From positions 1 to 40,778 of the forward strand of contig JAGOZU010000021.1 in assembly GCA_018058545.1 (NCBI GenBank): 40,778 nt of DNA, in the 5' to 3' direction. The position numbers and the translations under genes are program-made. The DNA is from Promineifilum sp. (GTDB taxonomy: Bacteria; Chloroflexota; Anaerolineae; Promineifilales; Promineifilaceae). This document shows, in pieces, positions 3,944 through 38,436 of the stretch (position 1 is the stretch's first letter; the number at the start of each line of letters is the position of its first letter). The notes under the pieces were generated by a model. That model saw nothing but the letters and a program-made list of their open reading frames with translations, was not told the DNA's origin and made no database searches.

Positions 3944-4911
3944 CCATCTCCCCAAGCCGTCACTGCGTCGAGGGCCGCCTTGTCCTCGACCGAAAGGGTC
4001 ACATCCGCCCCCTTGATCGTGTCCTCCAGTTGGGCGATGGAGGTCGCGCCGATGATGGCCGACGTGACCGCCGGATTAGCCAGCACCCAGGCGATGGCCG
4101 TCTGGGCGATCGTAGCCCCATAGGCGCTGCCCGTCTCCTCCAGCTTGTCCACAGCCGCGAAGCCGCGCTCATTCATGTAACGCTGCTGCACCGTTCCGGC
4201 CCGCTTCGATTCCGGCAAGGAGCCGTCACGCCGGTATTTGCCCGTCAGGAAGCCGGCCCCCAGCGGGCTGTAAGGGATCACGCCGACGCCTTGATCCAGA
4301 CAAAGCGGCTGCAACTCCCGCTCAAATTCAGCCCGATGGACGTAGCTGTAATGGGGTTGCAGACTGTCGTAGCGAGCCAGCTTGTGGATATCGCTGATCC
4401 AGAGCGACTTGGCCAGCAGCCAGGCGGGATAGTTGGAGCAGCCGACGTAGCGCACCTTGCCGGAACGCACGAGATCATCCATCGCCCTCAGCGTCTCATC
4501 CAGCGGCGTCTCATGATCCGGGGAATGGGTCTGATAGAGATCGATGTAGTCCGTTCGCAGGCGGCGGAGGCTGGCCTCGACGGCGTTCATGATGTGGTAG
4601 CGCGAGAGACCTTTATCGTTCGGGCCTTCGCCCATCTTGCCGCGCACCTTGGTGGCGATGACCACCTCATCGCGCCGGACGGCGCCGCTCGCCAACCAGT
4701 TGCCTATGTACGTCTCGGAGATACCGCCCGAACTGCCCTCAATCCAGCGCGTGTAGACGTCGGCCGTATCGAAAAAGTTGATACCCAACTCGACGGCACG
4801 GCTCATGACGGCATGGGCCGTCGGCTCGTCGGTCGACCAGCCGAACTGCATTGTCCCCATGCAGATACTGCTTACCTTCAGGCCGGTGCGGCCCAGACGA
4901 CGATATTCCAT
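3937..4911 (-). CDS. aldo/keto reductase
   Basis: 324 residues, a full-length AKR TIM barrel. The catalytic tetrad is visible as D48 and Y53 in FFDTADVY, K88 in VVIATKV and H129 in LYQTHSPD. C-terminal NADPH-binding elements (IAQTAIAWVLANPAVTSAII, then GATSIAQLEDT) are intact. It is the last gene of a minus-strand operon, starting 9 nt after the stop of the serine hydrolase at 4921-6423. It reduces or oxidises an unknown carbonyl compound with NADPH. The sequence does not define the substrate. Confidence 0.93.
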   Translation of the reverse strand: MEYRRLGRTGLKVSSICMGTMQFGWSTDEPTAHAVMSRAVELGINFFDTADVYTRWIEGSSGGISETYIGNWLASGAVRRDEVVIATKVRGKMGEGPNDKGLSRYHIMNAVEASLRRLRTDYIDLYQTHSPDHETPLDETLRAMDDLVRSGKVRYVGCSNYPAWLLAKSLWISDIHKLARYDSLQPHYSYVHRAEFERELQPLCLDQGVGVIPYSPLGAGFLTGKYRRDGSLPESKRAGTVQQRYMNERGFAAVDKLEETGSAYGATIAQTAIAWVLANPAVTSAIIGATSIAQLEDTIKGADVTLSVEDKAALDAVTAWGDGG

Positions 4912-15866: not shown

Positions 15867-16049
15867 ATGTTCGACGTTCTCATCCGTAACGGCCTCATCC
15901 ATGACGGCAACGGCAAGTCACCTTATACGGCCGACCTGGCCATCGCCAATGACACTATCGTCGAGATCGGCCGCATCGACGGCCGTGCGCGCCTGACGAT
16001 CGACGCCGATGGACTGGCCGTGTCGCCCGGCTTCATCAATATGATGTAG
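15867..16049 (+). pseudogene. N-acyl-D-amino-acid deacylase, 5' fragment (split by element)
   Basis: 60 codons from the ATG at 15867, with AGGAG eight bases upstream. MFDVLIRNGLIHDGNGKSP to LAVSPGFINMM is the N-terminal beta-sandwich and barrel entry of amidohydrolase-family D-aminoacylases. The stop TAG at 16047-16049 is made by the inserted element. The frame resumes exactly at 24249 after the second copy of the 10-bp repeat; together the two parts make 540 codons, the usual family length. The intact enzyme would cleave N-acyl-D-amino acids in the cytoplasm. Confidence 0.92.
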
Positions 16050-17595
16050 AATCAATACTAATTAAATCGGATGTAGTGCCGAGACCGCAACTAATCCTAA
16101 CCTTGAGGCTGCCGCTATCATCCCTAATCAGTTGCCCCCGGCAATCCAAGGCCTCAAATAATTCCCGTTTATTCTCTGCCGTTCCCCCTTCCCTAATCCG
16201 GCTTCTTGCTTGCCGGGCAATGGCCTTGATTTCGTCTTTCATCATCGGGCTTATGTCAGTATTGACTATCAAGGCCTCAAGCTCATCCCGCCGCCGTTCC
16301 AAGGCCCCTTGCAGCTTGCGGGTATCATTGATTTCCCGCTTGATGGCCGAGGCAATTACATCATCATCGGCATCCCCAAAGCCCTTGATGAGCCGGGCTA
16401 TCTTGCCCTCGGCCTTATCCAGCATCTTGGCCACGTCACCTAATTCCAGTTGGAACGGGCCAATATCCCTTTGGGCTTGGGCGGCCATATCCTCAATCAC
16501 CTCATCAAGCCGGGCATCGTTTTCTATAATCCCGACAAGCCAAGCCCATGCCCTGGCATCAATTTCATCCGCGTTAAGCCGCCCCAATGTGCAGCCCGCC
16601 TTGGCCCCGTCATGGCGGGCGCGTGAGCATCGATAATATCGATATATTCGCCCTTTCCACCCCTTAACCGATGAGCCATTGATAGCCCCGCCGCAAGTGC
16701 AAAGCATCCTTGCCGACATTAGGTAACATTCGCCCGGCCGATGCCGCCTTGCCCTTGCCTTATTATGAAGCCTTTGCACTTGAGCCGCTTGCCATGTTTC
16801 ACTATCAATAATGGCAAGCTCCGGGAAATGCGCCTTGATGCCGTCGAAAGAAAATTCCCCGATATAGGCCCGCCTGTCTATGATGCTTTCCGTTATGGTT
16901 GAGGCAAGCCATACCTTGCCCGCCCCCATTGCCCGGCCGGGTGTAGGGATGCCCTCATCGGATAGTATCCGGGCAATCGCGTTAAGGGTTAAGGGCTTGC
17001 CGCCATAGCGGCCCGTGTAAAGGTTGAAAATGCGCCTTACGGTTGCGGCCTCGGCCTCATCAATGACTAGATGAGCTTCCCGGCTTTTGCCCACCTTGCG
17101 ATAGCCGAAAGGGGCCCAAGCCCCTACCCATTTCCCCGCCCGTGCCTTTTCCCTCTTGCCCCTCATTGAGCGTTCCTTGATTGCCGCCCGCTCCTGGCTT
17201 GCCGCAAGCCCCTTGAAGAAGGTTATAAAGATGCTTGCCATATCGTTGCGGATAGGGCCGCTTTCGCAATCGTGAAGCGTCACCCCATGCCGGGCAAAAT
17301 GCTCAATGGTTGTTAGCAAGCGGCTTGCCTCATCTTCGGGCGGCCGTGATAGCCTGTCAATACGATAGACAATAACGGCTTGCACCTGCCGGGCTTCAAT
17401 CAACCGTATCAATTCCTTGCCGCCTTCCCGCTCATCAAGGCGGGTGGCCCCGCTTATATCATCCTGAAATTCGGCAATGATGTTGAACCCCTTGCGCTCT
17501 GCATAGGCCCGACATTCCTTGACTTGAGAGCCGAGGCTATAGCCCCTGTCTTTTTGTTCGCTAGTGCTTACCCTTGCATATACTGCCGCGTTCAT
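16036..17595 (-). CDS. large serine recombinase (integrase)
   Basis: 519 residues. The N-terminal resolvase domain has nucleophile Ser10 in YARVSTSEQ and the conserved YRIDRLSR and ERAAIKERSMRGK helices. A recombinase domain (APFGYRKV to RRAYIGEF) follows, then a zinc ribbon with C299-T-C301 and later Cys residues (YYRCSR, GCTLGR), and a long coiled coil (about residues 385-455). This is the layout of phiC31/Bxb1-type integrases, which join attP and attB without sequence homology beyond a 2-bp core. Its last codons cross the attL core, and the stop lies in host sequence. A stable hairpin precedes the start codon. Confidence 0.95.
   Translation of the reverse strand: MNAAVYARVSTSEQKDRGYSLGSQVKECRAYAERKGFNIIAEFQDDISGATRLDEREGGKELIRLIEARQVQAVIVYRIDRLSRPPEDEASRLLTTIEHFARHGVTLHDCESGPIRNDMASIFITFFKGLAASQERAAIKERSMRGKREKARAGKWVGAWAPFGYRKVGKSREAHLVIDEAEAATVRRIFNLYTGRYGGKPLTLNAIARILSDEGIPTPGRAMGAGKVWLASTITESIIDRRAYIGEFSFDGIKAHFPELAIIDSETWQAAQVQRLHNKARARRHRPGECYLMSARMLCTCGGAINGSSVKGWKGRIYRYYRCSRARHDGAKAGCTLGRLNADEIDARAWAWLVGIIENDARLDEVIEDMAAQAQRDIGPFQLELGDVAKMLDKAEGKIARLIKGFGDADDDVIASAIKREINDTRKLQGALERRRDELEALIVNTDISPMMKDEIKAIARQARSRIREGGTAENKRELFEALDCRGQLIRDDSGSLKVRISCGLGTTSDLISIDSTSY
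16038..16047. repeat. attL core, 10-bp direct repeat AATATGATGT
   Basis: Identical to 24249-24258. It lies at the exact point where the deacylase frame breaks and at the end of the serine recombinase gene. Codons AAT-ATG-ATG-T are shared, so precise excision by recombination between the copies restores the host gene. Confidence 0.88.
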
Positions 17596-17653: not shown

Positions 17654-17803
17654 CTAGTGTGACGGTTGCATGGCACTATCACGCTTGCGCTTTCTGTAGG
17701 CTTGTTGCTGGCAAGCCCGATTGCAATAAAGCCGCTTGGGGCCGCCATGCATCCGCTTGCCGCAATTCGCACATAGCTTCACATGGTATCCCCGGCCGCT
17801 CAT
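17654..17803 (-). CDS. 49-residue zinc-ribbon protein
   Basis: Reads MSGRGYHVKLCANCGKRMHG and on to LYCNRACQQQAYRKRKRD before its stop. Two CxxC/CxxxC pairs (CANC and CNRAC) followed by a basic helix make a treble-clef or zinc-ribbon fold typical of small phage and plasmid proteins. The ATG overlaps the TGA of the membrane protein gene (ATGA), so the two are translationally coupled. It may bind DNA or RNA; its place just before the integrase suggests an accessory or regulatory role, which is inference. Confidence 0.7.
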   Translation of the reverse strand: MSGRGYHVKLCANCGKRMHGGPKRLYCNRACQQQAYRKRKRDSAMQPSH

Positions 17804-18651
17804 AAAGGGCGGCCATCCTTATGCCCATTGGCCAAGGGCGGGTTAGCGACGGCAACCGCCTCATAGCCCTCATCCTCATCCGGCAGGTATTGAGCCAAGG
17901 CCGCCGCCAAATCTTCAAGGCTTGCCCGCCGCGCTTGGCCCTCGGCAATGTCGGCTATGCCGTCGCCATTCAAATCCAAGAGTTGAGGGGCTTGCCGGGT
18001 TAGGGCGGCAATTTGGGCATCCGTTAGGTTGAGTTGACGGCCTACAACGGGCGGCAATTGTTGCCACGTCATTTGCCTAATGACGGCCTTCATTTGCGGG
18101 CTTGCCATCACTTCAAGGCGGGCATCATGCTTAATCCGCGTGAAGCGTTCTTGAAGCTCTGCCTCATCATCGGCCCGCTTGGCATCCGGGTTGAGCCTTA
18201 GCATCACGTAGAATTGAATGCCGACAATCAAGGCACTAACGGGCAAGCCATATCGTACCCAAGAGGCCACGAAAGCGGGCAAATCGCCCCCATGCTCAAC
18301 CGCAAAGGATGAGATAAGGTTGACGGCCGCAAAGGCCGCCCAAGTGATTTCTAGGGCCATTGCGGCAGGTTTTTGCCGCGCTTTGAGTTGATGGGTTGCC
18401 AGTAGAACGGCCGTTGAAACGGCAAAAAGCTCAACAAGCGCAACCCCTGCAACCCGGATAATTGAGAATACATCACCCCCGGCCGTGTTTAGTCCAGTGT
18501 AAGCACGGGTGATGGCAACCGCGTGAATGGCCGTTACAATCGCAAGAGCCAAGAGTAAAGCCCATCCAAGCCAGCTTGCGGCCGTTCCTATCGTTCCTCT
18601 GGTAGCATCCCCGCTCAAATCAAAGGTATCATTCTCATCATTGGTAAACAT
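17800..18651 (-). CDS. membrane protein of unknown function with C-terminal soluble tail
   Basis: 283 residues from the ATG at 18651 (AAAGGA nine bases upstream). Four hydrophobic helices are visible: LGWALLLALAIVTAIHAVAI, VFSIIRVAGVALVELFAVST, AMALEITWAAFAAVNLISSF and YGLPVSALIVGIQFYVML. The remaining cytoplasmic tail includes LLDLNGDGIADIAEG, a calcium EF-hand or dockerin-like DxNxDGxxD motif. Similar four-helix proteins occur in actinobacterial and Chloroflexota plasmids. Function is unknown; it may act at the membrane in transfer or exclusion. Confidence 0.72.
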   Translation of the reverse strand: MFTNDENDTFDLSGDATRGTIGTAASWLGWALLLALAIVTAIHAVAITRAYTGLNTAGGDVFSIIRVAGVALVELFAVSTAVLLATHQLKARQKPAAMALEITWAAFAAVNLISSFAVEHGGDLPAFVASWVRYGLPVSALIVGIQFYVMLRLNPDAKRADDEAELQERFTRIKHDARLEVMASPQMKAVIRQMTWQQLPPVVGRQLNLTDAQIAALTRQAPQLLDLNGDGIADIAEGQARRASLEDLAAALAQYLPDEDEGYEAVAVANPPLANGHKDGRPL

Positions 18652-18670
18652 CGTTATAATCCTTTTAGGT

Positions 18671-18749
18671 GGGCCGCCCCCTTTCCTGCTACGGGCCGAG
18701 GGGCGGCATTGCTTACGGGCCGTTCTCATCCGGCAGGGTGGGGCGGCCC
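18671..18749. repeat. 10-bp GC-rich inverted repeat upstream of membrane protein gene
   Basis: GGGCCGCCCC (18671-18680) and GGGGCGGCCC (18740-18749) are perfect inverted copies 59 bp apart. Each is next to a copy of CCCTNTCCTGCTA in direct orientation. The leader of the membrane protein gene could therefore fold into a large structure. Confidence 0.45.
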
Positions 18750-18986: not shown

Positions 18987-20003
18987 TTATCCCTTATCCC
19001 GTTCGGATATTTCATTATCGGCAATATAGCGGATTGCCATCGCCGGGCTTGCCCATCCGAACCATTCCATAAGTTCCTTGACGCTATAGCCCTTGGCCGC
19101 CATATCGGTTGCACAATAATGGCGGCAATCATGAGCCGATAGGCCGTCAATCCCTATGGCCTTGCCCAAATCCCTAACCCGCCGCGTCAAGGTGAGCCGG
19201 TTGAGCGTGCTATCAATCAGGCTGCCATCCTTGCGGCTTGCCTTCAAGAGCGGCCCGGCTTGTGGGGCATCCGGCAGGTAAGCAAGCAAGGCCTTGAGCG
19301 TTCGGGCTGTTAGCCGATGGGCCGTTTCCTTATCCACCTTGGGCCGATAGAAGCGCAATTCGGCCGCCGTTATATCAAAGTTGCCGAGGGTAAGGGCGGC
19401 GATTTCCCCCGCCCGCAAGCCATGCTCAAGCAAGAGGGCCATCATGAGGGCATCCCGCCGCCCTTGGGGGCTATCGGGTTGAGCCGTCAACTGCCGGGCT
19501 TGCTCTGCCGACAGGTTGACGGCCTCGGCCTTCTTGGCCCCCACCTGCCGGGCTTGCGGCCGCTTCTCATCAACCCGCTTGCCCTCTTTCCGTGAATACC
19601 CTTTGACCGTCTGGATAAGGGCCAAATCTTGGGCATCAATCGCTCCGGCCTTGGCCGCCAATTGGGCATAGGTTTTTACGGTTGACAAGCGCACATTGGC
19701 CGAGGAAACGGCATAGCCTTGCTTGAGTTGCCATGCTACAAATCCCTCAACAATTCCCCATGTGATACCCTGCCAGCAATCCGGGTTGCCCTGGAAGTCG
19801 CAATCCACCTCAAGCCCGGCATCTTCAAGATAGCGGCCGAATAAGGCCAAATCTTGCGCTTGACGGCTTAAGGTGTTTTCGGCCCGCTTTTCCCGATAGC
19901 GGGCAAATACGCTCTTGCTTGCGGCCATGTTGGCAATCATACCTGCTTTTTGAAGGATGCTTAGTGAAGCGGGCGGGTTATGGGTTAGGGCTTGCATTGT
20001 CAT
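18987..20003 (-). CDS. tyrosine recombinase (XerC/D-like)
   Basis: 338 residues from the ATG at 20003, chosen for AAGGA seven bases upstream; a further ATG lies at 20027. The SAM-like N-terminal core-binding domain (SVFARYREKRAENTL onward) precedes the catalytic domain with R197 (EHGLRAGEIAAL), H291 and R294 (SAHDCRHYCA), W317 replacing the second His (FGWASPAMA) and nucleophile Y326 (IRYI). All catalytic positions are filled. It may resolve multimers of the circular element or act on a second site; the att structure of the element fits the serine recombinase better. Confidence 0.93.
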   Translation of the reverse strand: MTMQALTHNPPASLSILQKAGMIANMAASKSVFARYREKRAENTLSRQAQDLALFGRYLEDAGLEVDCDFQGNPDCWQGITWGIVEGFVAWQLKQGYAVSSANVRLSTVKTYAQLAAKAGAIDAQDLALIQTVKGYSRKEGKRVDEKRPQARQVGAKKAEAVNLSAEQARQLTAQPDSPQGRRDALMMALLLEHGLRAGEIAALTLGNFDITAAELRFYRPKVDKETAHRLTARTLKALLAYLPDAPQAGPLLKASRKDGSLIDSTLNRLTLTRRVRDLGKAIGIDGLSAHDCRHYCATDMAAKGYSVKELMEWFGWASPAMAIRYIADNEISERDKG

Positions 20004-20048
20004 GGGATTATCCTTATTAGTGTACATTTGTATAAATAATGTATACTC

Positions 20049-20077: not shown

Positions 20078-20508
20078 GCCTTTGAAGGCATCAATATTGG
20101 CCTTTTTTAGGTTTCACTATGTCCCTGCCGCCCTCGTGTCGCCGGCGGGTTAGGGGCTATCATCCCGGCGGCCGTTTCTTTTTTTCGTGTACCGTTTCGG
20201 TCGGCGGCCGCCGGTCATGGGGGGTGTACGAGGTGTCTCGACCCCAAAAAAGAAAAACGGCACCTTCATGTTGGCTTCATGTTTTAGAGAGCGCATACGA
20301 GGGGTAGGCCGCCAAGAGCATGAAACGCGGCCGCCGCAACGCGGCAATCATCCGGCAATGCCACCTCTCAAAATGGCGGTCGTATCGTTGCCGGTCGCTT
20401 TCTTTTTTTTCGTGTACCGTTTCGGTCGGCGGCCGCCGGGCGATGGTCGCTAAATCGCCTGGGCCTATAAAATTCCTATAAAAATAAAAGAAAATAATAG
20501 AATCGGGA
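20078..20508. other. gene-free repeat region inside the element
   Basis: No convincing gene on either strand. It holds two 40-bp direct repeats (20175-20214 and 20399-20439), a near-inverted A-rich copy around 20239-20258 and a T-rich tail (20460-20505) with CCTATAAAA twice. Such an arrangement could be an origin, a partition site or a structured terminator region for the 84-residue gene that ends at 20509. Confidence 0.55.
20175..20439. repeat. two 40-bp direct repeats containing a 12-bp palindrome
   Basis: Copies at 20175-20214 and 20399-20439 are identical apart from the length of the T run (7 or 8). Each runs TTTC-T(n)-CGTGTACCGTTTCGGT and ends in the palindrome CGGCGGCCGCCG. Spacing start to start is 224 bp. 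Confidence 0.88.
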
Positions 20509-20763
20509 TTATGTATCCCCCTCTTGCGGCTCATCACCCCAAGTCATCTGTATCACTTCACCATCGCCCGGCGGGCAATCTTCGCTATAGCAAATGATGA
20601 TGAGCTGGTAATGTTCTTGAAGTTCATTCACCTCATCGGCCGTGTAATCCCGCCCTTTGCTGTGATATACCCCGGCTTGGTAGCTCATGGTGAGAAGTGG
20701 CTTCATTTCATCGGGTGGGGCGGCTTTCTTTTCCAGTTGGGTAAGCCTACTTCGTAGTGTCAT
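20509..20763 (-). CDS. 84-residue protein of unknown function
   Basis: From the ATG at 20763 it reads MTLRSRLTQLEKKAAPPDEM, a short amphipathic helix followed by an acidic domain. It overlaps the upstream HTH gene by 17 nt, suggesting coupling. Segment GRDYTADEVNELQEHY looks like a folded core. No family recognised. Confidence 0.55.
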   Translation of the reverse strand: MTLRSRLTQLEKKAAPPDEMKPLLTMSYQAGVYHSKGRDYTADEVNELQEHYQLIIICYSEDCPPGDGEVIQMTWGDEPQEGDT

Positions 20764-21124
20764 TGAATCGCCTCTCAAGCTCTGCCACCCGTTCGGATAA
20801 TTCGACATTTTCCCGCAACTTGAGGGCATGGCCTAGCAGGGCATCGGCCGCCCGCAAGCGGATAGCCGCCCCGGCCGTGGTGGGGGATGCTATGATTTCC
20901 TCAATTGCCGTTAGTGAAGCGTCAACCATTGCCGCAAGCCTAACGGCCGCCAAATGGATTGCCCCATCGCTCCCTGCCTTCAAGGCGGCTTGAAACTCAT
21001 TCAAGCCAAGCCATCTTTGAAGCGTCTTGCGGCCTATGCCGCATTCAAGGGCGGCGGCCGTGATGCTGCGCCCTTCCAAGAGCTTCTCAACTGCCTTGGA
21101 TTGTTTTGCGGTTAGTTTTTCCAT
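20747..21124 (-). CDS. HTH protein, homeodomain-like (terminase-small-subunit style)
   Basis: 125 residues from the ATG at 21124 with AGGGG upstream. LTAKQSKAVEKLLEGRSITA then AALECGIGRKTLQRWL is a helix-turn-helix of the type found in phage terminase small subunits and transposase N-termini. The C-terminal half is helical with a likely coiled coil (RENVELSERVAELERRF). No terminase large subunit accompanies it, so a regulatory or replication role is as likely as packaging. It is the first gene after the 28-bp inverted repeat. Confidence 0.7.
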   Translation of the reverse strand: MEKLTAKQSKAVEKLLEGRSITAAALECGIGRKTLQRWLGLNEFQAALKAGSDGAIHLAAVRLAAMVDASLTAIEEIIASPTTAGAAIRLRAADALLGHALKLRENVELSERVAELERRFNDTTK

Positions 21125-21162
21125 AATTTTCCCCTGCGTCATTTTGAGCCATTATGCACAAA

Positions 21163-21298
21163 AGTATATTTGGTTTAATTGGTTTAAATGGGGTTAATTG
21201 CGACGGTTGCCGGGCCGCCCATGATACATTTTCTTGCTGCGGTATGCCTGGAAGGGGCTGGCATTGTTCGCATTTAAACCAATTAAACCAAATATACT
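21163..21298. repeat. perfect 28-bp inverted repeat with 80-bp loop, origin or operator candidate
   Basis: Arms 21163-21190 and 21271-21298 are perfect reverse complements; a partly matching CACAAAA flank extends both with a 2-base difference. The left arm contains TTTGGTTTAATTGGTTTAAA, i.e. GGTTTAA twice, and a third variant GGGTTAATTG follows at 21191-21200. The site fills the gap between the RepA-like gene and the next gene. Iteron-like motifs next to a replication helicase suggest a replication origin; a repressor operator is the alternative. Confidence 0.9.
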
Positions 21299-21312
21299 AT
21301 TTTGTGTATTGA

Positions 21313-22506
21313 CTACCTGAATTCTGCCTTCACCCGCCAAATGTCGGGCCGCTTGCCCATTTGGGTTGATGGCTGCTCATCCCGGCAGATGTAGCCGTCG
21401 ACTTCAAGCCGTGCCAGTTGGCGGCCGATTGTCGCTTCCGTCACCTTGCGGATTTCTGCCAGTTGCTTAGCCGTCATGCCTTCCCCCTCTGTGTCATTCT
21501 CTAGCATCGCCTCAAGCACCTTGCGGCCCGCCCGTATTTTCTCTAGCTCGTAGGCATCCCCGACATACACCCACCCGGCCCCTTCCTCGGCCTGTCTGAG
21601 TGTCATATTGCGGATGTCCAAATCCCTGCTTTCGGCGTGTAGGATGGCTTCACGTTCCCCCGGCTTGCGCTCAAGGATGAGGCCCATATCATAGGCCCCT
21701 CGGATGGCCGAGGCCCCCCGAATGGTGGCAAAAATATCATCCGGGTTGGCTGCCTTGCCCGTATGATGCACTATGACAATAGCGATGTCCTTATTGTGGG
21801 CGATATAGGCCAAGGCGTTTACGAGGCTGCCCATTGCGCTATTGTCGCGCTCATCCGTGCGACCGCTCATGGCGGCGATGAGGGTATCAATGATGATTAG
21901 GTCGTAGCCCTCGGCGTAGCCGTTGACCTCCACGGCCCCCGGCCCGATGCCGCCTTGCCCGTCGTCAAGATATGGGATAGTGAATAAAACGGCCGCGCTT
22001 TCGGGTTGCCAGTTGATGAGCTTGGCCCGCGCTTGCACCCGCCGCGCCCCGTCTTCAAGCGCATAATATAGCACCCTGGCTTTTGTAGTTTCCCGGCCGA
22101 GGAAATCGGCCCCCGTATCGATGCACATTGCCAGTTGCAGCCCAAGCCAGCTTTTGCCGCTCTTTGGCCGCCCGCCCAAGATGCCAAGATGCCCCTTGGC
22201 AATCAAGCCATCTACCAAATACTCTTGCGGCTTGAATTGGTGGGCCAGTAAATCGCTCATGGGCCTTGGCAGGGATGAGGGCGGCAATTGCCCGTTTGTC
22301 GGGCCGCTGCCGTTTGTAGTTGGAAGTGCCCACGGGCCGCTGCTGTCGCCTTCCCGCCACGGGTGCAAAATAATGCGGCCGTCCTTTTCCCGTCGTTCAA
22401 CCCATTTGCCAAATTTGGCAATGTAATAGTCGGGCGTGATGTCCAGAATTTCAATTGGGATGCCAATCCAGTTTTCTGCAACGTCGCCGATTTTGAATGA
22501 TGGCAT
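21313..22506 (-). CDS. RepA-like AAA ATPase/helicase
   Basis: 397 residues from the ATG at 22506, which shares one base with the upstream stop (TGATG) and follows GGGGGTGGA. RecA-fold P-loop near residues 112-119 (GRPKSGKS, K118), Walker B in YDLIIIDTLIAA, sensor-like IVIVHHTGKA and RGASAIRGAYD. This matches the hexameric RepA/RadA-like ATPases used by plasmids and prophage replication modules. A C-terminal winged helix (MTAKQLAEIRKVTEATIGRQ) follows. It probably unwinds or loads at the element's origin. Confidence 0.88.
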   Translation of the reverse strand: MPSFKIGDVAENWIGIPIEILDITPDYYIAKFGKWVERREKDGRIILHPWREGDSSGPWALPTTNGSGPTNGQLPPSSLPRPMSDLLAHQFKPQEYLVDGLIAKGHLGILGGRPKSGKSWLGLQLAMCIDTGADFLGRETTKARVLYYALEDGARRVQARAKLINWQPESAAVLFTIPYLDDGQGGIGPGAVEVNGYAEGYDLIIIDTLIAAMSGRTDERDNSAMGSLVNALAYIAHNKDIAIVIVHHTGKAANPDDIFATIRGASAIRGAYDMGLILERKPGEREAILHAESRDLDIRNMTLRQAEEGAGWVYVGDAYELEKIRAGRKVLEAMLENDTEGEGMTAKQLAEIRKVTEATIGRQLARLEVDGYICRDEQPSTQMGKRPDIWRVKAEFR

Positions 22507-22931
22507 CAATCCACCCCCTGAAAAAGCCGCCCTTGGGTGGGCGTTTGCGGCCGATTCCATTCATTGAGGGGAAGGAACCATTGCGCCCCATACCCCCGAT
22601 TAAAGCCCTTGCCGCGTTCCCATACGGTTGCCATACTTGCCCGATAAACCCGGCCGCTTTCGGCATCCGTCACCTCAACCCATTTGGCCCCGGCCGCCTC
22701 GGCATCCCGCAATGTGGATACATCAAAGGCGATGGCGGGCGGCTTTCGCAGAAAATGGGCCGAGGCCATCACCCGCTTGAAGAAGCAATCGCCCTTGACG
22801 GCCCCAACCGTCTTTGAGCCTACGTAGATGGGGATGCCCCCGGCCCGCGTTCTTGTGGTATACTGTAAGCGGCTTGGCCGTCCGCCTATGCCGCCCGTCC
22901 GGTTGCCGCCGGGCTTTTCATTTTCTGTCAT
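22506..22931 (-). CDS. 141-residue protein of unknown function
   Basis: Begins MTENEKPGGNRTGG and is predicted soluble. Segments SKTVGAVKGDCFFKRV and KWVEVTDAESGRVYRASMAT suggest a small beta-rich domain, but I do not recognise a family. GGAGGGG seven bases before the ATG is a strong ribosome binding site. It overlaps the small upstream ORF and touches the RepA-like gene (TGATG), so the three are one translational unit. Confidence 0.65.
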   Translation of the reverse strand: MTENEKPGGNRTGGIGGRPSRLQYTTRTRAGGIPIYVGSKTVGAVKGDCFFKRVMASAHFLRKPPAIAFDVSTLRDAEAAGAKWVEVTDAESGRVYRASMATVWERGKGFNRGYGAQWFLPLNEWNRPQTPTQGRLFQGVD

Positions 22932-23300: not shown

Positions 23301-23355
23301 AGGGGTAGATTGGAAGTAACGAAAGGGGTAGGTTAAGGGGTAGTCTTAGGGGTAG
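23301..23355. repeat. four AGGGGTAG words, 12-23 bp apart
   Basis: AGGGGTAG occurs at 23301, 23324, 23336 and 23348. The last two overlap the end of the upstream gene, encoding part of its TPKTTP tail. Could be iterons or chance low-complexity. Confidence 0.4.
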
Positions 23356-24094
23356 CCTCTTTTGTCGGTAGTAGCTCGTGTTTTCTCATATGGTTAAAAT
23401 CTTTTCTGATAGTTTCAATTGACACTGTTTCCACTTCGGCAATTTTCGCTTGGGTTAGTCCTTTGGGAATGTAGTCTTTTATGATTTTATCCCATCGTTC
23501 CAAGCGTGATGGCCTAATCCCAAGCCGCCTTGCACGTATTCCCAAGGCGTTTTCATCCATTTCAATGGCGGCCCTGTCTGGATGCTCTTGAGGCCGCTTA
23601 ATCGCCTCATCCTCATCCTTGGCCGCGCTATCCCGCTTTGCCGTTACAAGCCCGCCCCACTCTTGTTGTAAGCGCATATCTAACTGTTGGGCTATGTGTG
23701 TGAAGTCCGGGAGTTCGCTGTAAAGCTCTCGCTGCCATTCTGGTAGTTGCATGACTGCCTTCTTGTAAGCCGCAAGCCGCTCGCTGTTTTGGCCGTCGTA
23801 TGCCGGTATCAGCTTGAGGCTGTACCCCCACTGACCGCCTGTCATCGTCGGCGATAAAACAACATCATAGAACACCCACCCATCCAAAAAAAATCTGTAT
23901 TTGCGCGTATCCCCGATTTCCGTAATAGTATAGTCAAAGTGAGCCAATGAGCCGACGGCCCATAGTATGACCCGTTCCATCGCCCATTTCGCTTCATTTA
24001 AATTCAGTGTTTTCAATGCTTCGTACACAACACACCCCATACAAAAAGCCGCCTGAATTGTCACAGACGGCCTTGAGTGTGCTATACTACTCAT
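23333..24094 (-). CDS. first gene of the element, C-terminal HTH, unknown function
   Basis: 253 residues from the ATG at 24094; upstream alternatives are ATG 24109 and TTG 24127. The N-terminal two-thirds (AKWAMERVILWAVGSLAHFD, then GQWGYSLKLIPAY) is a mixed domain I do not recognise. The C-terminus RPSRLERWDKIIKDYIPKGL then TQAKIAEVETVSIETIRKD is a clear helix-turn-helix. An extended -10 promoter lies upstream, so it is probably the master regulator or replication initiator of the operon. Confidence 0.75.
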   Translation of the reverse strand: MSSIAHSRPSVTIQAAFCMGCVVYEALKTLNLNEAKWAMERVILWAVGSLAHFDYTITEIGDTRKYRFFLDGWVFYDVVLSPTMTGGQWGYSLKLIPAYDGQNSERLAAYKKAVMQLPEWQRELYSELPDFTHIAQQLDMRLQQEWGGLVTAKRDSAAKDEDEAIKRPQEHPDRAAIEMDENALGIRARRLGIRPSRLERWDKIIKDYIPKGLTQAKIAEVETVSIETIRKDFNHMRKHELLPTKEATPKTTP

Positions 24095-24120
24095 GTCAGC
24101 CGCCCGCATCGGTTGACCAT

Positions 24121-24171
24121 GCCCCAAAATGCTTCTACATTGTTGGGGCCTTTCTTTCCTTGATTATATCA
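24121..24171 (-). promoter_or_regulatory. extended -10 promoter and leader of the element's operon
   Basis: On the minus strand TGATATAAT (24163-24171) is an extended -10. CCCCAA and TTGGGG (24122-24127 and 24142-24147) form a 6-bp inverted repeat in the leader. Transcription from here would run through the regulatory and RepA-like genes. Confidence 0.6.
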
Positions 24172-24248: not shown

Positions 24249-24258
24249 AATATGATGT
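24249..24258. repeat. attR core, 10-bp direct repeat AATATGATGT
   Basis: Second copy of the att core. Reading AAT-ATG-ATG-TGC-TGG restores N-M-M-C-W and joins the two deacylase halves in frame. Confidence 0.88.
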
Positions 24259-28296: not shown

Positions 28297-28671
28297 TCAC
28301 TTGGCTCGGATAGTAGGCAGATAGCGAATACGAACCCTTTTGGGTTGGACAGTTACCAAAGCTCCATCACCCAATTCGATGCTTCTTTCTGCCAACAAGG
28401 CCCGAAGCAAAGATACCAATGACTCAGCCTTAAGTCCTTCAATTCGGATCCGAATTACAGAGGGCTTGGATAAACCTGATAGAGCCAAAATCGCATGGAA
28501 ATCAGCGTCAAGGGTGACGACGATGCGATCTTGCTGGTTAGCCAAACGGATGAGGGTTTTGTCATCAGCGTTGGAGAGTCCCATCTCGCCAACATGAACC
28601 GCGTCTATCTCGTGCAAACGAAGTAAAGCAGCCGCCGATCGAGGCAATCCCTGATCAAGCAGCAACTTCAT
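28297..28671 (-). CDS. DUF5615 PIN-like toxin
   Basis: 124 residues. MKLLLDQGLPRSAAALLRLH, HVGEMGLSNADDKTLIRLA and VVTLDADFHAILAL contain the acidic D6, D36-D37 and D55-D57 pattern of DUF5615, a short PIN-fold (Mut7-C-like) domain thought to cleave RNA. It overlaps its partner DUF433 gene by 17 nt, the usual toxin-antitoxin arrangement with the antitoxin first. Confidence 0.9.
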   Translation of the reverse strand: MKLLLDQGLPRSAAALLRLHEIDAVHVGEMGLSNADDKTLIRLANQQDRIVVTLDADFHAILALSGLSKPSVIRIRIEGLKAESLVSLLRALLAERSIELGDGALVTVQPKRVRIRYLPTIRAK

Positions 28672-28891
28672 AAGAAAAGACCACTATGCGATCATCCAGA
28701 TTGGCTGCAGCAAAGGCCAGAGCCTGCCGAATGTCTTCACCTTCAAGCTCAGGAAACTCCCGAAAAAGCTCTTCGCGATCCGGGTAAAGAGCCAATAGCT
28801 CAAGCACTCGCTTGACGGTCAATCGCAGATCGCGAATGCATGGCTGCCCGTTCAGGCGGTCGGGGTTCGTTGTGATGCGATCAAATTCCAT
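28655..28891 (-). CDS. DUF433 antitoxin
   Basis: 78 residues. RITTNPDRLNGQPCIRDLRL and VKRVLELLALYPDREELFRE are the signature of DUF433, a winged-helix-like antitoxin that usually precedes DUF5615. It should bind and inhibit the neighbouring PIN-like toxin and repress the operon. A minus-strand TATAAT (28933-28938) lies inside the near-palindrome GAGATAATTATACTC about 42 bp upstream, a plausible promoter-operator. Confidence 0.92.
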   Translation of the reverse strand: MEFDRITTNPDRLNGQPCIRDLRLTVKRVLELLALYPDREELFREFPELEGEDIRQALAFAAANLDDRIVVFSYEVAA

Positions 28892-37776: not shown

Positions 37777-38151
37777 TCATGGGGTCGATTGGTCGGACGG
37801 ATCGTCATAGGATTGACGCTCCTCATGCAGCGCGTACTCGGCCTGACCGGCAAAGGTTCGAGGGCGCTCGATCAGGCGACCGGTGACGTACTTGTGCAGG
37901 ATGCTGGACATCAGCGTCTGGTAGGGGATGCCATCTTCGAACGCCATTTCCTTGAGCGCGAAGAGGTCCTGATTGGTAATGCGAATGTTGACGCGTTGCT
38001 CTTTGCGGAGGAACACCCGGGCTGCCTCTTGATATTCGGTGATTTTGGCTTCCATATCAGGAACAGGAACCGTTTCGCCTCGCTCGAAGGCTTCAAGGAT
38101 TTCGCGCTCTTCCGCATCCATTTCCACGTCGAATACTTTGTCGTCGTCCAT
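37777..38151 (-). CDS. BrnA-like/CopG-type antitoxin
   Basis: 124 residues. The core QRVNIRITNQDLFALKEMAF then EDGIPYQTLMSSILHKYVTG is a ribbon-helix-helix DNA-binding domain, preceded by an acidic linker (EEREILEAFERGETVPVPDM) often seen in such antitoxins. It starts 3 nt after the BrnT-like toxin gene, the usual toxin-first order of brnTA. It should neutralise the toxin and repress the operon. Confidence 0.88.
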   Translation of the reverse strand: MDDDKVFDVEMDAEEREILEAFERGETVPVPDMEAKITEYQEAARVFLRKEQRVNIRITNQDLFALKEMAFEDGIPYQTLMSSILHKYVTGRLIERPRTFAGQAEYALHEERQSYDDPSDQSTP

Positions 38152-38154
38152 TAT

Positions 38155-38436
38155 TTATTTTGGTCTCCTGAGATATTGCCGGGTCGCTTTTCGACCGGGA
38201 TAGATAGTTTTCAGAAACGCGTCATTATCTTTTTCGATGAATGGCACGACATACACGTAATCGTCAATACGAACGATAAAATATTTTTGACCGGGGTACT
38301 TTTCCTGGTTTGGATGCTCCTCTACCCGGAGCAAATCACCAAGCATGATGTGGGTCACGATCTGATCAAAAGAAACACCACGTTCCTTCTTCAGGAGATC
38401 GTTCTTGTCTTCGTTCCAATAGAAGTTACGGTTCAT
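38155..38436 (-). CDS. BrnT-family toxin
   Basis: 93 residues. NFYWNEDKNDLLKKERGVSF, then KYPGQKYFIVRIDDYVYVVP and FLKTIYPGRKATRQYL are the BrnT pattern, a RelE-like ribonuclease that halts translation. It is followed directly by its antitoxin. No ribosome binding site is visible before the ATG; instead the palindrome AATGTATCACATT ends against the start codon. Confidence 0.88.
   Translation of the reverse strand: MNRNFYWNEDKNDLLKKERGVSFDQIVTHIMLGDLLRVEEHPNQEKYPGQKYFIVRIDDYVYVVPFIEKDNDAFLKTIYPGRKATRQYLRRPK

Follow-up and report, generated by a model that had tools for sequence, protein, structure and literature searches.

The window, that is, the whole 40,778-nucleotide stretch of DNA analysed here, contains an 8,211-bp serine-integrase element, and the inverted repeat under study is internal to this element. 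The element is bounded by two copies of AATATGATGT, a 10-bp direct repeat whose left copy (16038–16047, plus strand) lies in a host amidohydrolase gene and whose right copy lies at 24249–24258 (plus strand). The genes within these ends are on the minus strand. They comprise a large serine integrase (16036–17595; Resolvase, Recombinase and Zn_ribbon_recom, with a match to phrog_95 at E 3e-86), a function-unassigned gene of 309 aa without a confident family (17800–18729), a tyrosine recombinase (18987–20027; Phage_integrase, E 5.2e-25), an HTH protein of 131 aa that family searches describe as terminase-small-subunit-like (20747–21142), an AAA_25 helicase of 415 aa (21313–22560), and two further function-unassigned genes, one of 141 aa upstream of the helicase and without a confident family (22506–22931), the other of 264 aa with weak HTH similarity from weak matches only (23333–24127). 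When the flanks are joined across the element, a single open amidohydrolase frame results. We searched for the amidohydrolase gene in 20 genomes including that of the window, and 8 of them matched: the gene is in two pieces in the window genome and in one unbroken piece in all seven other genomes of the same genus (74–83% identity), while no match at 1e-30 was obtained in 12 more distant genomes. The element is therefore an insertion into that gene. Since its ends lie at 16038 and 24249 and the repeat is internal, the repeat was rejected as the integrase attachment site. The element also has a perfect 36-bp direct repeat (20179–20214 and 20404–20439, 225 bp apart), possibly a recombination or regulatory site, in the interval from the tyrosine recombinase to the small genes. 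In the host flank, judging by the impression given by the translations, two small gene pairs are presumably toxin-antitoxin-like (38155–38436 with 37777–38151, and 28297–28671 with 28655–28891).

The inverted repeat sits between the helicase stop codon and the start of the HTH gene. Its left arm (21163–21190, plus strand) and right arm (21271–21298, minus strand) match as reverse complements at 28 of 28 positions around a loop of 80 bp (21191–21270), exactly as the sequence-only reading had reported. Ungapped extension leads to 44-nt arms (21147–21190 and 21271–21314) that are 86% complementary, so that the extended imperfect repeat spans 21147–21314. The earlier claim that the repeat is far beyond chance was borne out: about 5e-10 perfect pairs of this length are expected in the window with loops of up to 400 bp, and the longest perfect inverted pair in 20 Markov surrogates measured 11–15 bp. 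Tandem 9-bp words, earlier called iteron-like, are indeed present in each arm. The left arm reads TGGTTTAAT (21171–21179) followed by TGGTTTAAA (21180–21188), and TGGTTTAA occurs twice in each arm at a spacing of 9 bp, its inverted copies in the right arm lying on the minus strand at 21274–21281 and 21283–21290. GGTTTAA had been counted two to three times; there are exactly two copies per arm and none elsewhere in the element, and the third exists only as the degenerate word TGGGGTTAA (21189–21197, plus strand), which is in phase with the first two words and inward of the left arm. The AT-rich context holds for the arms but not for the loop, whose composition is mixed. The terminator scan reported no terminator-like site at the repeat, in agreement with the absence of a terminator tail stated before. 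Moreover, the 28-mer occurs only as this arm pair in the 3.6-Mb genome of 185 contigs, even when as many as 3 mismatches are tolerated. Each arm has an outward-facing TATACT at its outer edge (21163–21168 and 21293–21298); the two may possibly be divergent -10 elements overlapping the words, and the promoter scan called no site at these positions.

The helicase stop codon is 14 bp from the right arm. The protein is assigned to AAA_25 with a Pfam E-value of 1.2e-34 and is RSF1010 RepA-like; in its predicted fold it comes nearest to RSF1010 RepA (1g8y; Z 23.3, rmsd 2.5, 215 residues aligned). Residues ~336–410 (21331–21555, minus strand) form a predicted C-terminal winged helix, which we propose as the reader of the words. 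In the AlphaFold2 model of the full helicase this region has a pLDDT of 86–97 in ten-residue blocks, and the domain modelled alone has a mean pLDDT of 82.9. Structure comparison matched it to winged-helix domains, the best with a Z of 11.2, and phage P4 alpha does not appear in the match lists, an absence that is uninformative on relatedness.

Within the family of the window, 5 of 52 genomes have a close helicase, giving six loci, two of which are in the window genome. All six carry an array of words at the helicase stop codon, five by the strict test described below and one, L222, by eye, its array being made of TTGTTTTGA repeats and their inverse. The helicases of L028 and L222 share 60% identity, and the words of L028 are TTGATTTGA. 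The gene 3' of the array has a CHC2 zinc-finger motif in the other five loci, whereas the window has the HTH gene there; among 176 relatives in general, the CHC2 motif was found downstream of the helicase in 16 (by motif). Thus the downstream gene changes and the array stays, so that what all six arrays share as a neighbour is the helicase. A second AAA_25 helicase occurs in the window genome (G000:C144, about 20476–21393; L022, L029), with 47% identity to the first, and is followed by its own weaker array and then by a CHC2-motif gene.

We then collected relatives of the helicase more widely. The class contributed 19 of its 396 genomes, the GTDB species set the best 80 among 406 confirmed matches, and IMG/VR the best 80 among 186 confirmed matches; named plasmids and phages were added to these. 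A single-sequence helicase query of viral contigs gave no close copies; an alignment query did find relatives. The 187 loci were reduced to 178 that are unique by their last 150 residues, 176 of these have a complete ORF end, and the 173 with at least 400 bp around the stop codon were counted (L222 is outside this number). The locus set is not random, and the control regions were taken from the flanks on these same contigs. In the strict test a word must occur at least twice in ~9-bp steps and then inverted, at the 3' end of the helicase gene.

Strict inverted phased arrays were found at 82 of 173 helicase ends, against 0 of 172 upstream flanks, 1 of 151 downstream flanks and 0 of 865 Markov surrogates. 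Such arrays were also rare at other ORF ends (5/713) and in distant tiles (12/2045). When one mismatch was allowed and a score of at least 6 demanded, the count was 78/173, with 0/172 and 0/151 in the two controls. After clustering by helicase-core identity, strict arrays occur in 48 of 82 clusters at 60% and in 22 of 41 at 50%. Exactly 9 bp separate the words in 202 of 272 array steps. In a simpler count, over the region from -250 to +350 of the helicase stop codon, a 6-mer is repeated at 9-bp spacing in 76% of the 173 loci, compared with 23% in the upstream controls (172) and 26% in the downstream ones (151); the signal peaks at the stop codon, within -100 to +200. Clear excesses were also seen at spacings of 8, 17 and 18 bp, but 9 bp is the strongest, 18 is its double, and 8 and 17 are lesser. 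The AT fraction exceeds that of the surroundings by 0.116 in the arrays and by 0.081 in the loops. The words themselves vary between elements while the layout is kept, for example GTTGCTTTT, TTGATTTGA, CTTTACTTT, GTGCTACAT and CACAATAAT. The sequence-only reading had named the lack of the repeat in related elements as an outcome that would speak against it; related elements in fact have inverted 9-bp word arrays at the equivalent place, the 3' end of related helicase genes. The named genomes with strict arrays belong to Chloroflexota, Spirochaetota, Bacillota, Acidobacteriota, Pseudomonadota and Vampirovibrio, and an actinobacterial plasmid, whose array scores 3+3, brings the phyla to seven.

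The coding sequence of the helicase itself contains the array in many loci, and translation there yields tripeptide repeats, for instance SIHSIHSIH (pATHE01) and VAKVAKVA (L039). In L034, L039 and L047 the strict array positions fall within the 3' part of the gene. Helicase tails with tripeptide repeats (VAKVAKVA, ATEATE, SIHSIH) were noticed in L034, L038, L039, L040, L047 and others. The strict test missed 91 of the 173 loci. By eye, several clostridial loci that fail it have degenerate words of the GTGAC kind, which were not counted. L041 shows an unusually long ACACACTTT-type run behind the helicase, mostly in 9-bp steps and without a clear inverted partner. In the plasmids of L051 (Enterococcus faecalis) and L219 (Subdoligranulum), a related helicase lies near tet(O)/tet(W), with GTGAC-type arrays behind it. 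By the mismatch-tolerant scoring, Tsukamurella plasmid 5 and the Subdoligranulum plasmid carry arrays; the scores of Nonomuraea (4), Campylobacter pICON (5) and Promineifilum plasmid III (4) are near those of the controls. No clear array was seen in the Synechocystis B12 plasmid (score 0) or in Anabaena pANACY.03 (4), both with a related helicase. Lactococcal phage sk1 likewise has a related helicase without an array, and the putative origin in its record lies elsewhere.

To ask what reads the words, we compared the arrays with a winged-helix profile built from 37 helicases (set A2) chosen by length and taxon spread; the corresponding domain alignment (A3) has 36 rows, one of the 37 being omitted. 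Strict arrays accompany 68 of the 98 helicases in which a C-terminal winged helix could be detected and 14 of the 75 in which it could not (Fisher p 1.8e-11), where presence calls lean towards the chosen 37 because the profile was made from them. The link persists with one helicase per 60% cluster (42/62 vs 3/20, p 5e-5) and loses significance when each 50% cluster is represented once (p 0.07). Word similarity correlates overall with winged-helix identity at r 0.29 and with core identity at r 0.37; in pairs with core identity below 0.6 the values are 0.05 and 0.17. Among close pairs (core identity 0.6–0.85), rho is 0.56 for the winged helix and 0.43 for the core, with n=42 and the pairs being non-independent. 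Judged from these sequence comparisons, the helicase's own winged helix is the likeliest, though still putative, reader of the words, since the covariation with the words is weak.

Taken together, the comparison suggests that the repeat consists of two mirrored, 9-bp-phased arrays of putative iterons directly behind the RecA-fold helicase gene of the element. The earlier proposal of a replication origin or a central operator is thus supported, and between the two the comparison favours an origin, because it is the helicase that the array accompanies when the gene downstream differs; the repeat may have an operator role in addition. An operator or autoregulatory site instead of an origin, at which the HTH protein, or the helicase acting as a repressor, would bind the words and control the HTH gene, is unlikely in our estimate, though it is not without arguments: the left arm is ~20 bp upstream of the HTH ORF, and of the TATACT motifs at the outer arm edges the left one could be the -10 element of that gene. 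Yet the arrays are kept in the five other family loci where a CHC2-motif gene replaces the HTH gene, they lie within the helicase coding sequence in many loci, and the promoter scan lists no site at the repeat. The HTH protein gave no tblastn match (1e-3) in 20 relative stretches, and on this ground we rejected it as the general word reader.

Inverted repeat arrays also serve as centromeres and packaging sites, and the HTH protein resembles terminase small subunits, both of which would suit a partition (parS-like), packaging or transfer site beside a replication gene. We hold this to be quite improbable, as the array is tied to the helicase across very different loci (phage-like, chromosomal and plasmid) and no family match to ParA, ParB, a relaxase or a large terminase was obtained among the element proteins. 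An RNA hairpin between the helicase and the next gene, acting as terminator, attenuator or mRNA-stabilising stem, could draw on a fold far more stable than shuffled sequences (z -7.2), but it is very improbable, given that there is no U tract, that relatives show 9-bp word arrays, often in coding sequence, and that the window has no Rfam match; an intrinsic terminator in particular was rejected in view of the 80-nt loop and the lack of a terminator-like site called at the repeat. The outline of 136 bp with perfect terminal inverted repeats would also fit a MITE or other dispersed mobile repeat, an outcome that the earlier reading had itself named as contrary to its claim. A MITE would require multiple dispersed copies, whereas the arm pair is single in the genome, and relatives have arrays at the same gene end with different words, so that this explanation retains hardly any probability. 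A 20-mer of the repeat is common to three IMG/VR contigs, and no related helicase was found in the stretches examined.

We consider it probable, therefore, that the repeat is the replication origin of the 8.2-kb integrated element, or a cis-required site like the crr of phage P4. The comparisons given below with pATHE01, with P4 crr and with SaPI Rep and SCCmec Cch2 all speak for this reading, as does the AT-richness of the arrays. A working order of events can be proposed for such an origin. The serine integrase would first excise the element. The C-terminal winged helices of helicase subunits would then dock on successive words of each array, which follow one another at a little under one turn of the helix. 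On the AT-rich arms the mirror-image arrays would orient two helicase assemblies in opposite directions, and these would open the duplex and begin bidirectional unwinding. Primers would be supplied by a primase of the host or of a partner element: the family scan recognised no primase among the proteins of the window element, and the host's or another element's primase may therefore serve. Binding of the words by the winged helix, loading of the helicase and the start of replication at the repeat are what we infer from the arrangement.

Beyond the window, we lean slightly towards the view that these loci represent a widespread and so far unrecognised replicon class. Its RecA-fold RepA/DnaB-like helicases would bear a C-terminal origin-recognition winged helix and load themselves on mirrored 9-bp arrays behind or inside their own gene, with in-gene origin words translated as tripeptide tails. 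Phages, integrated elements and plasmids of at least seven bacterial phyla would use such replicons, and the words would have diverged from one element to the next into private origin codes. If this is true, the origins of a great many little-studied phages, plasmids and integrated elements could be read from sequence as a mirrored 9-bp array behind an AAA_25 helicase, the words would predict incompatibility groups, and the odd tripeptide-repeat tails of helicases would be explained as translated origin sequence. RepA/DnaB-like helicases normally depend on a loader or on another protein that binds the origin; the self-loading initiator-helicase design would then extend from AAA+-type helicases to these RecA-fold ones, and one protein with one 140-bp site would make a simple test system for the placement of DnaB-like rings on duplex DNA.

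Among known systems, classical iteron plasmids (RK2, P1, pSC101 type) have iterons of ~17–22 bp that are bound by non-helicase initiators of the RepA/TrfA type. They resemble the window in having directly repeated sites and differ from its 9-bp steps and mirrored arrays; with such steps, and with no RepA/TrfA-type initiator among the ten proteins scanned, a classical iteron replicon was rejected. RSF1010 RepA shares both fold and family (AAA_25) with the window helicase. Its chain, however, has 279 aa and the alignment stops near residue 333–351 of the window helicase, so RSF1010 RepA lacks the C-terminal winged helix; at RSF1010, according to PMC8965321, opening the origin is the task of another protein, RepC. 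Other proteins named RepA are of different types as far as the available portions of the sources go, since that of mycobacterial prophages has an N-terminal HTH and no helicase (PMC7157519) and that of PLE is a RepA_N protein (PMC7145576). The accessible part of PMC10061031 contains nothing on such arrays, and our literature search, made largely without subscription papers, found no description of a mirrored array for AAA_25 helicases.

A parallel is pATHE01 (NC_012036), an 8.3-kb circular plasmid of Caldicellulosiruptor bescii and a natural replicon, which encodes Prim-Pol, AAA_25 and HTH in one protein. The part coding for the HTH is immediately followed by 6+3 mirrored words in 9-bp steps. 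As in the window, an AAA_25 and HTH protein is followed by an inverted 9-bp word array. Unlike the window, the helicase is fused to Prim-Pol, the array lies within the coding sequence (SIH tripeptides), and the plasmid is free.

Phage P4 also resembles the window in having short direct and inverted repeats directly 3' of its initiator gene. The C-terminal winged helix of P4 alpha binds the type 1 repeats, and the crr, annotated as 'cis required region for replication' and located directly 3' of the alpha gene, contains these in direct orientation at +4314/+4323 (9 bp apart) and in inverted orientation at 4366/4384 (18 bp apart). P4 fails the strict 6-mer test, and its one-mismatch score of 4 is at a level common in controls. 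Moreover, P4 alpha combines a Toprim primase with a D5-type helicase (D5_N/DUF5906/Pox_D5), whereas the window helicase is AAA_25, and P4 has a separate annotated origin (ori1) ~4.5 kb from crr.

In SaPI Rep and SCCmec Cch2, according to the accessible part of PMC7581432, the C-terminal domain recognises short iterons directly downstream of its own gene; Cch2, for which binding has been shown, has a direct-repeat region of 23 bp containing three 5-nt iterons, and these, supposing even spacing, would agree with 9-bp steps. SaPI Rep, SCCmec Cch/Cch2 and, by prediction, the window element thus have in common a helicase with a C-terminal dsDNA-binding domain and iterons directly downstream. From the same portion of PMC7581432, the SaPI/SCC helicases are of the DUF927/MCM-like and D5/Primase_Cterm types, and the window core is RecA-fold AAA_25. 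Of the features of the SaPI/SCC/P4 type, the window has the short direct and inverted iterons directly 3' of the helicase gene and, in the model, the C-terminal DNA-binding domain on the helicase; the DUF927/MCM-like or D5 helicase core is absent. The element is accordingly not classed as a SaPI/P4/SCC replicon, because its helicase core is of another type, and the best explanation by analogy is that it would work like these self-loading replicons on another helicase core.
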